DNA of 64,000 nt, from assembly GCF_023736115.1 (NCBI RefSeq), contig NZ_JAKQZC010000002.1, positions 310,001-374,000 of the forward strand, written 5' to 3'. This stretch comes from Salinicola avicenniae (GTDB lineage Bacteria > Pseudomonadota > Gammaproteobacteria > Pseudomonadales > Halomonadaceae). Below the pieces are notes generated by a model. The model did no database searches. It was not told the DNA's origin and worked only from the letters and a program-made list of their open reading frames with translations. The first letter of the stretch is position 1. Each line of letters begins with the position of its first letter. Position numbers and translations under genes: made by a program. Shown one piece after another: positions 38,024 through 52,977 of the stretch.

Positions 38024-38619
38024 GCAGATCGCTCCTGACTGACAGTTTCAAAAGAGACAATGTTGAAGAAGATTACCCACCGGGAGATCCCGTCGCGGCG
38101 ATAGCGAATTGACCGCCAGACCACGACGATGCCCGTCGGGTGAGCGACAGCTTACCCGACGCACCCCGCCCTGTGCATTCTGCAGTGTCGGCCTCTGCCG
38201 GTATCAATCACTGGCACGACCGAGACATTACGGTGAATGTCACGGCCACCTCCTCGAGCGTCCAACCAATCGTTTCGCGAGTCATCTATATCTTCTTTGA
38301 AAGCGTTAGGAAAACCATACTGATTGACGCGATCAGCGCGGAAAAAAGGCGATGTCAGGTTATAGACGCGCGCGTTTTTTCCCTCTATGGTGCTTAAGCG
38401 GGGCATGGCAAAGGCTCGACCAAAGTCCGGTTTCGGCCGCCTTGACGAGGTTTTGCACCCCATGCATCATCCGCTGCGTAGGTTTGCAGGAAGAATAGCG
38501 TCAGTTGTAAGTCGATCCCGTCGAACACCGCTTGCGCATTCCCCCTAAGTCTTACCACGCATTTCGGGCCCCCTGGGGGGGGCTCGGCAACATCACTATG
38601 CAAGTTAAGGATATCGACA
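38024..38619. other. 596-bp gene-free region upstream of cspA
   Basis: No convincing gene. A stem-loop with an 11-bp stem (arms 38134-38144 and 38151-38161, one G-T pair) lies near its left end. An AT-rich tract with purine/pyrimidine runs is at 38320-38395. A run of C then G residues around 38566-38583 can fold into a GC-rich hairpin 35-50 bp before the cspA start. A long structured 5' leader is typical of cold-shock genes; open frames on the plus strand here lack ribosome-binding sites. Confidence 0.45.
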
Positions 38620-38826
38620 ATGGCAACTGGCACTGTCAAATGGTTCAACGATACCAAAGGCTACGGTTTCATCTCTCCCGATGACGGCGGCGATGATCTG
38701 TTCGCACACTTCTCCGAAATTCAGGCAGAAGGCTTCAAGACCCTGCAGGACGGTCAGAAAGTGACCTTCGACGTCACACAGGGTAAGAAGGGCCTTCAGG
38801 CCGCCAACATCAAGGTCTCCGGCTAA
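38620..38826 (+). CDS. cspA: Cold-shock protein, CspA family
   Basis: A 68-aa single cold-shock domain. RNA-binding motifs are [11 protein letters not shown] (RNP1-like) and LFAHFSEIQ (RNP2-like), after the invariant [14 protein letters not shown]. Binds single-stranded nucleic acid as an RNA chaperone or antiterminator. Whether it is cold-induced, stationary-phase or constitutive cannot be told from the protein; the long upstream leader suggests post-transcriptional control. A strong terminator follows at 38850-38876. The gene symbol denotes the family, not proven orthology. Confidence 0.95.
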
Positions 38827-38849
38827 AACGCCAGCCGACCTTGAGCAGA

Positions 38850-38876
38850 AAGCCCACCTTCACGGTGGGCTTTTTT
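38850..38876 (+). terminator. Rho-independent terminator of cspA
   Basis: A 9-bp stem (AAGCCCACC, 38850-38858, and its complement 38864-38872) with a 5-base loop followed by a run of T, 24 bp beyond the cspA stop. Confidence 0.93.
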
Positions 38877-38938
38877 GTGTCCGTCTGCTTGTCGACACGG
38901 GCCGGCCACGCTGGTGCCCGGCACCGCGATGCCGAGGC

Positions 38939-42635: not shown

Positions 42636-43487
42636 TTGAGCAAACATCACAACCTGACACCGCCAAGCCGCGTCAAGAAGGATGAAGACGACGAGCACGA
42701 TTTGCATCTCAACGGCGAAGCACTGCCTTCCCGTGCGGCAGCGGTCCACGAGTCGATCCGCGAAGAAGGAGAAATAGAACTCAGCCGCACGGTATCCGCC
42801 CTGCTCTGGTCAGCGATCGCTGCCGGGCTGTCGATGAGTTTCTCGATGCTGGCCAAGGGACTGATGCGCGCCCACCTGCCGGAGACCGACGTCGGCTTTC
42901 TAGTTGAATCACTGGGCTACACCGTCGGCTTCCTGGTGGTCATCATGGCCCGTCAGCAGCTCTTCACGGAAAACACCGTGACCGCCGTACTACCGGTGAT
43001 GAGCCAGCCGCGAATCGTGCGCTTTCTTTGCCTGCTGCGGCTCTGGGGCGTGGTGTTGGTCGGTAATCTGATCGGCGTGGCGATCTCGGCCTGGGCGATT
43101 CTGGCGCTGCCGATTTTCTCGAGCGAAACGCACCAGGCCTTTCTCACGCTAGGCGAGCACATCCTGCAAAATACGCCGATGCAGATGTTCGCCAAGGGCA
43201 TTGTCGCCGGCTGGATGATCGCCACCATGGTCTGGCTGCTGCCAAGTGCCGGCAGCGCCAAGATCTGGGTTATCCTGATCGTCACCTACCTGGTCGCGAT
43301 CGGCGAGTTCACGCATATCATCGTCGGCTCGACGGAAGTGATGTATCTCGTCTTCGCCGGCCAGGCGAGCTGGAGCGACTACCTGTTCCACTTCGGCCTG
43401 CCGACACTTGCCGGCAACGTCTTCGGCGGCACCTTCATCTTCGCGCTGATCAGTCATGCGCAGATTCGGAGCGACAGCGACCGCTGA
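42636..43487 (+). CDS. Formate/nitrite transporter family protein (YfdC-like)
   Basis: A 283-aa FNT-family membrane protein from a TTG start at 42636 (MSKHHNLTPPSRVKKDED), supported by AAGGAT 7 bp upstream; the frame is open further but no better start exists. A hydrophilic Asp/Glu-rich N terminus of about 55 residues precedes six helices. FNT features are SAIAAGLSMSFSMLAKGL, the FTENTVTAVLPVM half-helix, LVGNLIGVAISAW and GEFTHIIVGSTEV. The charged N-terminal extension and sequence resemble E. coli YfdC. Substrate (formate, nitrite or another small anion) unknown. Confidence 0.88.
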   Translation: MSKHHNLTPPSRVKKDEDDEHDLHLNGEALPSRAAAVHESIREEGEIELSRTVSALLWSAIAAGLSMSFSMLAKGLMRAHLPETDVGFLVESLGYTVGFLVVIMARQQLFTENTVTAVLPVMSQPRIVRFLCLLRLWGVVLVGNLIGVAISAWAILALPIFSSETHQAFLTLGEHILQNTPMQMFAKGIVAGWMIATMVWLLPSAGSAKIWVILIVTYLVAIGEFTHIIVGSTEVMYLVFAGQASWSDYLFHFGLPTLAGNVFGGTFIFALISHAQIRSDSDR

Positions 43488-43510
43488 TCGACTTCGCCGA
43501 TTGCCTATCG

Positions 43511-43619
43511 CCAATGGCTAGTCATCCCCAATGGCTAGTCATCCCCAATGGCTAGTCATCCCCAATGGCTAGTCATCCCCAATGGCTAGTCATCCCCAAT
43601 GGCTAGTCATCCCCAATGA
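43511..43619. repeat. Tandem repeat, 17 bp x 6 plus a partial copy
   Basis: Six copies of CCCAATGGCTAGTCATC (first copy lacks one C: 43511-43526, then 43527-43543, 43544-43560, 43561-43577, 43578-43594, 43595-43611), with identical units, followed by a partial copy CCCAATGA that is the start of the terminator stem. It lies between the FNT gene (ends 43487) and the convergent leuA. Perfect identity indicates recent expansion or strong turnover. Confidence 0.97.
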
Positions 43620-43658
43620 CGACAAAGGGCACCTTGATAGGCGCCCTTTTTCGTCATT
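43615..43658. terminator. Bidirectional terminator between the FNT gene and leuA
   Basis: A long stem (arms 43615-43633 and 43640-43658, two mismatches) with a 6-base loop. The arms include runs AAAGGG and CCCTTTTT so both directions have a T-rich segment. It directly adjoins the 17-bp tandem repeat, whose units resemble its outer flank. Confidence 0.85.
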
Positions 43659-43721
43659 GGCCGGGCCATCACCGAACGAGCTCCGGCTGGCCGAGGCCTG
43701 ACAGGCCGACAGCCTACTCGA

Positions 43722-45422
43722 TCATTGCGCGGTTTCCATCTCGCGCATCGCTGTCGTCGAGGAGGCCGACGCCAGATTGATGCCGGAGATGACCGCCTTG
43801 AGCGAGGCGCTGACCGTGTCGCTGTCCTCGGCCACCGCGCAGATCCGCTGACCGTCGACATTGAGCTGCACGAAGGCAATGGCATTGGCGTCGCTGTCGC
43901 CACCCAGCGAGTGTTCACTGTAGTCGATGATGCCCACGCTAACGCCGGAGTGCTTCTGCCAGGCATCGGTAAAGGAAGACATCGCGCCGTTGCCGCTGCC
44001 GGAGAGGCGCAGCGTCTCGGTGCCCTGCCACAGCGTCACCTCGATACCCTCTTCCTGTCCCTTGGAGAGCCGGTAGTCGGCCAACGACAGCGGCCCCACG
44101 CGCTGGAAGGTCTCGAACATGACGTCGCGAATCACTTCGCTGGAAAGCTCGCTGGCGCGCTTCTCGCTTTCCTGCTGCACGTACGGCGCCAGCGCCAGCA
44201 TCATCCAGCGCGGCAAGCTAATGCCGTAATCCCGCTCGAGCAGGAAGGCCATGCCCCCCTTGCCGGACTGGCTGTTGACGCGGATCACCGCCTGGTAATC
44301 ACGACCGATATCCCGCGGATCGATCGGCAGATAGGCGACCTGCCACGGCTCATCGGCCTGCTGCTTCTTGAGCGACTTGCGGATCGCGTCCTGGTGGCTG
44401 CCGGAAAACGCGGTATAGACCATCTCGCCGACCCACGGGTGGCGCGGATGCATCTGAATACCGGTGCACTCATGCACCACCTGGATGATCTCGTCCGGGC
44501 GGGAGAGATCCAGCTGCGGATCGATGCCCTGGCTATAAAGGTTCATCGCGAGCGTGACGATATCCATGTTGCCGGTACGCTCGCCGTTGCCGAGCAGCGT
44601 ACCCTCGACCCGCTCGGCACCCGCCAGCAGCGCGAGTTCGGCCGACGCCACCGCCCCGCCGCGATCATTGTGGGTGTGGACCGAAATGATCACGCTGTCG
44701 CGATTCTTGATGTGCTGGCAGAAGTACTCGATCTGGTCGGCGTGATGATGCGGCCCGGCTACCTCTACCGTGGTCGGCAGATTGAGAATGCACTTGTTGT
44801 CCGGCGTCGGCTGCCAGACGTCCATCACCGCCTCGCAGATCGCCAGCGAGAAATCGATCTCGGTGCTGGAAAAGCTCTCCGGCGAATACTGAAAGCGCCA
44901 GTCGACGTCCGGATAGCGCTCGGAATAGGTTTTGACCCAGGTAGCGCCTTGCACGGCAATGTCAACGATGCCATCGCGGTCCATCTCGAACACGCGCTCA
45001 CGCTGCGTGGTCGAGGTCGAGTTGTAGAGGTGGATGATCGCGCGCTTGACGCCCACCAGCGCGTCGAAGGTCTTTTCGATCAGGTGCTCGCGACACTGCA
45101 CCAGCACGGCGATGGTGACATCGTCCGGAATCTGGTTCTCTTCGATGAGCCAGCGCACGAAGTCGTAGTCCGGCTGGCTCGCGGAGGGGAAGCCGACCAT
45201 CACTTCCTTGATGCCGACCTTGATGATCTGATGCCAGAACCGTTTCTTCTGCTCGACGCTCATCGGTTCGAGCAGCGCCTGGTTGCCGTCACGTAGATCC
45301 TCGCTGACCCAAATCGGCGCGTGATCGAGATCACGGTCCGGCCATTGGCGGTCGAAGGCGGGCACGCGAGGCGCAGGGCGATACTTTGTATGATCGAAGG
45401 CGCGCTGGTCGAAAGCAGACAT
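43722..45422 (-). CDS. leuA: 2-isopropylmalate synthase
   Basis: Condenses acetyl-CoA with 2-oxoisovalerate, the committed step of leucine synthesis. The start at 45422 (MSAFDQRAFDHTKYRPAPR) with AGGAA 8 bp upstream gives 566 aa, the long form of the enzyme. Seen: PIWVSEDLRDGNQALLEPM (catalytic HMG-CoA-lyase-like motif), SVHTHNDRGGAVASAELALLAG (metal-binding histidines) and GNGERTGNMDIVTLAM. The C-terminal regulatory domain includes GSGNGAMSSFTDAWQKHSG, the leucine-feedback LeuA dimer domain. It is divergent from an Lrp-type regulator, a likely controller. Confidence 0.97.
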   Translation of the reverse strand: MSAFDQRAFDHTKYRPAPRVPAFDRQWPDRDLDHAPIWVSEDLRDGNQALLEPMSVEQKKRFWHQIIKVGIKEVMVGFPSASQPDYDFVRWLIEENQIPDDVTIAVLVQCREHLIEKTFDALVGVKRAIIHLYNSTSTTQRERVFEMDRDGIVDIAVQGATWVKTYSERYPDVDWRFQYSPESFSSTEIDFSLAICEAVMDVWQPTPDNKCILNLPTTVEVAGPHHHADQIEYFCQHIKNRDSVIISVHTHNDRGGAVASAELALLAGAERVEGTLLGNGERTGNMDIVTLAMNLYSQGIDPQLDLSRPDEIIQVVHECTGIQMHPRHPWVGEMVYTAFSGSHQDAIRKSLKKQQADEPWQVAYLPIDPRDIGRDYQAVIRVNSQSGKGGMAFLLERDYGISLPRWMMLALAPYVQQESEKRASELSSEVIRDVMFETFQRVGPLSLADYRLSKGQEEGIEVTLWQGTETLRLSGSGNGAMSSFTDAWQKHSGVSVGIIDYSEHSLGGDSDANAIAFVQLNVDGQRICAVAEDSDTVSASLKAVISGINLASASSTTAMREMETAQ

Positions 45423-52901: not shown

Positions 52902-52949
52902 AGGTAGTTACAACACAAGGTAGTCATACGACAAGATAGTCACACCACA
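52902..52949. repeat. Degenerate tandem repeat, 16 bp x 3, between aldA and its terminator
   Basis: Units 52902-52917 (AGGTAGTTACAACACA), 52918-52933 (AGGTAGTCATACGACA) and 52934-52949 (AGATAGTCACACCACA). The array begins 36 bp after the aldA stop and runs into the terminator's left arm, ACAAGGCCC, which overlaps the last unit. Confidence 0.75.
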
Positions 52950-52977
52950 AGGCCCGGCGCGCAGCGTCGGGCCTTGT
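52947..52977 (+). terminator. Terminator downstream of aldA
   Basis: A 14-bp stem (arms 52947-52960 and 52964-52977, one G-T pair) with a 3-base loop, beginning in the tandem repeat. Confidence 0.75.

Follow-up and report, generated by a model that had tools for sequence, protein, structure and literature searches.

The spacer between two convergent genes of a Salinicola genome carries six identical copies of a 17-bp unit, which run directly into the foot of a terminator-like hairpin, and the question raised by this arrangement is whether it is a working device or the trace of a copying accident. The second appears to be the case. It is very probably a lineage-specific intergenic minisatellite that arose by replication error, and it would have no function, none being needed to explain it. 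The array is real but ordinary, and it does not indicate a new system. The window, that is, the whole stretch of DNA that was analysed, is 64 kb long and spans 310001-374000 of a contig of 653,558 bases; the genome of 4.03 Mb is in 11 contigs. The features of the locus are the following:

42636..43487, + strand: formate/nitrite transporter family gene (PF01226; Pfam E 2.4e-50), from a codon-usage gene caller, start codon approximate
43507..43510, no strand: left flank ATCG, equal to the unit end ATCC at three of four bases; the TRF array starts at 43507
43511..43612, no strand: tandem array of six identical 17-bp units, CCAATGGCTAGTCATCC
43613..43618, no strand: partial seventh copy, CCAATG, which is also the hairpin foot
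43613..43660, between the convergent genes: terminator-like hairpin of 48 nt, with arms of 22 positions, two mismatches and a 4-nt loop
43722..45422, - strand: leuA, 2-isopropylmalate synthase (NF002991, 812 bits against a cut-off of 455; Pfam), from the codon-usage gene caller, start codon approximate

The unit copies begin at 43511, 43528, 43545, 43562, 43579 and 43596. A pattern match tolerating up to three mismatches found six copies, all six exact, against a mean of 0.13 in shuffled sequence, where none of 100 shuffles contained six. TRF reports the array at 43507-43618 with a period of 17, 6.6 copies, 98% matches and a score of 217, the highest among the 21 TRF rows of the window. The run in which each base equals the base 17 positions further on is 91 bases long (43511-43601), and the array together with the partial copy makes a periodic stretch of 108 bp. 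The six identical copies of the original prediction are thus borne out, as they stand in one assembly, and its limits of 43511-43658 are right to within two bases, the hairpin ending at 43660. The unit is longer than 10 bp and the copies lie head-to-tail with no spacers between them, as is characteristic of a minisatellite or VNTR locus; a CRISPR array was rejected because the units adjoin without unique spacers. The tetranucleotide CTAG, which has 34 sites in the window, six of them inside the array, had been called rare. It is indeed depleted in the sampled 464 kb of the genome (265 observed, 583 expected from trinucleotides), but its rarity indicates no function.

The array lies downstream of both neighbouring genes. 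It is separated by 23 bases from the transporter stop codon, which ends at 43487, and leuA, running in the opposite direction, ends at its stop codon at 43722, past the hairpin; the whole spacer is 234 bp long. The transporter gene also matches the NCBIfam fnt model, below the cut-off (70.4 vs 232.3 bits). On the + strand the GGGC/GCCC core of the hairpin stem is followed by TTTTT, and, read on the - strand, an A-C mismatch of the core turns into a G-U pair, so that the hairpin could serve both convergent genes as a terminator. It resembles an intrinsic (Rho-independent) terminator in its G+C-rich core stem, its T tract and its position between two convergent stop codons, but differs in that the last partial repeat unit doubles as the stem foot and in being unlisted by a simple consensus scan, which returned no terminators in 43300-43900, the hairpin seen in the sequence and in the folds notwithstanding. 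It had been proposed that the first bases of the terminator, given as CCCAATGA, match the start of the unit. CCAATG is common to the hairpin foot and the unit start, whereas the last base of that string differs (the unit has G) and its first C belongs to the last unit. A promoter scan of 43300-43900 found none in the array and one weak site only, at 43698-43725. The one Rfam match in the window is a cspA thermoregulator at 38470-38878 (80.8 bits; gathering score 78), unrelated to the array, within which a small + strand ORF was called at 38620-38826.

A possible origin of the six copies is suggested by the edges of the array. The 91-base identity run equals 5x17+6 and so leaves six bases of direct repeat, as a duplication primed by homology would be expected to do; six edge bases would match by chance with a probability of about 4^-6, by single-edge arithmetic uncorrected for the choice of edge. 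Since the flank ATCG matches the unit end ATCC at three of four bases, the likely ancestral direct repeat is the pair ATCGCCAATG / ATCCCCAATG, 17 bp apart, in which 6 bp are exact and 10 bp agree with one mismatch (9/10 identical). The ancestor would have possessed a single 17-bp segment between these short repeats, the second of which lay at the foot of the terminator hairpin. The polymerase may have paused at the foot of this long hairpin, slippage or template switching between the direct repeats would have produced a second copy, and the number would then have risen to six by slippage or unequal recombination among the copies. Slippage of DNA polymerases between direct repeats and pausing at a hairpin foot are documented, as deletions, in PMC4134008, and slippage and recombination are presented as two models for repeat expansion and change in PMC3899988. 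The pausing step is an extrapolation, because the hairpin model of PMC4134008 describes the deletion of DNA between direct repeats on either side of the hairpin, whereas at this locus both repeats are on one side of the hairpin and the outcome is a duplication. The array would be transcribed in the 3' untranslated region of the transporter mRNA, ahead of the terminator.

Growth of the array from the terminator flank, another suggestion of the original prediction, is plausible at this locus because six bases at the start of the hairpin are part of the direct repeat able to prime it, but it does not amount to a general rule in the sampled part of the genome. Among 21 arrays there, six overlap a hairpin edge by at least three bases; arrays placed at random average 5.5 when kept to the same spacers (P = 0.48) and 2.6 when any spacer is allowed (P = 0.03). 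With the edge relaxed to 'within 5 bases', the count is six against 6.6 in the same spacers (P = 0.74) and 3.2 in all spacers (P = 0.08). The array-terminator junction is therefore not special, being roughly what short spacers with hairpins in them yield, and arrays have at most a weak tendency to sit in hairpin-containing spacers. That arrays are found at hairpins no more than expected by chance within their spacers was counted against the minisatellite reading. The junction test placed 21 arrays and the array survey described below 20, their gene-edge rules being different. One of the six is elsewhere in the window, at 52902-52952, where three diverged 16-bp units have the same layout, their terminal CAAGG belonging to the foot of a hairpin of 13 perfect pairs at 52947-52977.

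The comparison with relatives covered 18 Salinicola genomes, including the one studied here, with one genome per species. All 17 of the others have matches to the transporter gene and to leuA at its 3' end; between their transporter gene and whichever gene follows it lie 86-318 bp. That following gene is on the - strand, like leuA, in eight of the 18 genomes, this one included, and a + strand gene intervenes in the other ten. The exact 13-base core of the unit, AATGGCTAGTCAT, is absent from all 17 other Salinicola genomes and occurs six times in its own genome, always in the array. Recent expansion, as originally proposed, is how six identical units would most naturally be read, and it agrees with this absence. 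Arrays of unrelated sequence do occur at the same place: one genome (G009) has 5.3 copies of a 19-bp unit in its transporter-leuA spacer, and another (G001) a 17-bp repeat of other sequence, 1.9 copies, in the same spacer. The G009 array (L024) lies 94-192 bases past the transporter stop and extends into the called 3' end of leuA.

Wider searches gave a similar picture. A 34-base unit dimer, sought with up to three mismatches in 58 genomes, was found in one, its own, and two exact 12-base cores 3-12 bases apart gave no matches in the scanned GTDB genome contigs and IMG/VR viral contigs, a scan from which the records of the window's own genome were possibly excluded. In its own 4.03-Mb genome no unit copy with fewer than three mismatches exists outside the array, and seven other matches with three mismatches compare with 16 for a reversed control pattern. 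Distant blastn of the spacer (43488-43721), run with the BLAST low-complexity filter on, returned two plasmid and five phage records (E 0.06-0.8, at most 18% query cover), and none of the seven places touches the array; a mobile or phage origin of the array was considered and rejected. Nothing on such loci appeared in the titles and abstract openings of the open-licence literature on Salinicola tandem repeats or Halomonas VNTR. The array is like the bacterial minisatellites and VNTR loci used in MLVA typing in its identical head-to-tail units of more than 10 bp, its intergenic position, its partial terminal copy and its absence from the relatives searched; it differs in adjoining a terminator-like hairpin and in being known from the copy number of one genome. 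It might serve as a marker for typing isolates of one species.

The unit also has features of dispersed elements. REP/BIME sequences are dispersed palindromic repeats, short and near-palindromic, found near gene ends in many copies. Like these and like uptake-signal terminators, which are mentioned in PMC2267715, the array unit is short and near-palindromic and lies near gene ends, but it differs from them in occupying one genomic place only, and so is not a dispersed family. Membership in a REP/BIME or uptake-signal family was rejected, there being only the six array copies with fewer than three mismatches and the 13-bp core occurring in one of the 18 Salinicola genomes.

An alternative to a copying slip is that the array is a functional structure of the transporter mRNA, in which the units (AUGGCUAGUCAU) pair mutually to form stacked helices before the terminator, with the effect of protecting the mRNA or tuning termination. 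The RNA of the + strand at 43488-43672 folds at -85.6 kcal/mol (z = -10.5 relative to dinucleotide shuffles), and against shuffles the - strand RNA has z = -5.3 and the array as single-stranded DNA z = -5.6; these values, however, mostly reflect repetition, because shuffling destroys the repeats themselves. When the unit was permuted instead, the six-unit RNA (-46.6 kcal/mol) was equalled or bettered by 40 of 2000 permuted units. A fold that beats 98% of them leaves room for a structural role, a point against the minisatellite reading, but a 2% level is expected about once per 50 units and is unsurprising with some 20 arrays at hand. Of 19 other units tested, a set which omits a diverged 22-bp repeat of the genome's own sample (L130) and includes the G009 array, one reached the 10% level (17/200) and none the 5% level. 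In self-complementarity, measured as the longest run when one mismatch is permitted, the unit is ordinary: its value of 8 is reached or exceeded by 1003 of 5000 permuted units. The unit has no conservation in the 17 other Salinicola genomes, and the hairpin takes the same fold whether the complete array or no more than its final 25 bases are included. A functional 3'-UTR structure is very unlikely. The more elaborate version, a copy-number-tunable 3'-UTR element whose self-pairing units are gained and lost by slippage, adjusting termination or mRNA stability at the transporter-leuA junction with the terminator foot as the seed of regrowth, is highly improbable.

The near-palindromic core of the unit and the regular 17-bp spacing, which place an imperfect 12-bp palindrome, ATGGCTAGTCAT, at every turn of the repeat, would also suit the binding of a protein, either an iteron-type initiator or a regulator. 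Against this, the array is downstream of both neighbouring genes, the unit has no near copy elsewhere in the genome, no replication gene is present among the four nearby genes tested (the PF01226 transporter, leuA, MgtC and Lrp/AsnC), and the array is on a contig of 653,558 bases. This is the least credible of the explanations considered, and an iteron replication origin in particular was rejected on the lack of an initiator gene among those four genes and on the size of the contig. It is very unlikely, too, that the number six is an assembly error, that is, the result of short-read assembly having collapsed or falsely expanded the array. The 108-bp periodic stretch is near short-read length and the assembly is in 11 contigs, but the array lies inside the contig of 653,558 bases, and an artefact could alter the copy number but would hardly create the array.

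The minisatellite reading agrees with what was found in other intergenic spacers. The survey covered the window plus 400 kb more of the same genome, 464 kb in total, and counted intergenic arrays with a TRF score of at least 50 and a period of 10-40; genes were called by our own codon-usage script, not a standard program, with a model trained on pooled sequence, also for the eight other genera. The sample contains 20 intergenic arrays in 61,456 intergenic bases, where ten dinucleotide shuffles average 0.4, and without the window 12 arrays in 51,870 intergenic bases (0.3 shuffled). Four other Salinicola genomes contain 21 arrays in 78,771 intergenic bases (1.0 shuffled) and eight other genera six in 49,205 (0.0 shuffled). 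The unit sequences of the arrays in the studied genome vary from place to place. Ordinary slippage can produce perfect short arrays beside terminators in these genomes, and caution is due in reading them.

Several minor observations accompany the survey. The window is rich in arrays, with eight of the 20 in its 64 kb against 12 in the 400 kb outside it. Reported periods of 14-18 bp account for 15 of the 20 arrays in the sample and for eight of the 21 in the four other Salinicola genomes, a difference noticed post hoc. One other intergenic array of the sample outscores 217, a ten-copy 17-bp array with a score of 310 (L125:2598-2766; contig C3, 522598-522766), whose copies are mostly of two alternating forms and make a 34-bp higher-order repeat. 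This array runs right up to the ribosome-binding site of a small ORF (MSRHPIRDNALKAALRSPQFRQ...), which may resemble ArfA. TRF reported its 17-bp unit at none of 19 loci from the 17 other Salinicola genomes; at three of these loci (L176, L186 and L187) other short repeats precede the match by no more than about 110 bases, and L186 and L187 share the same 19-bp unit.
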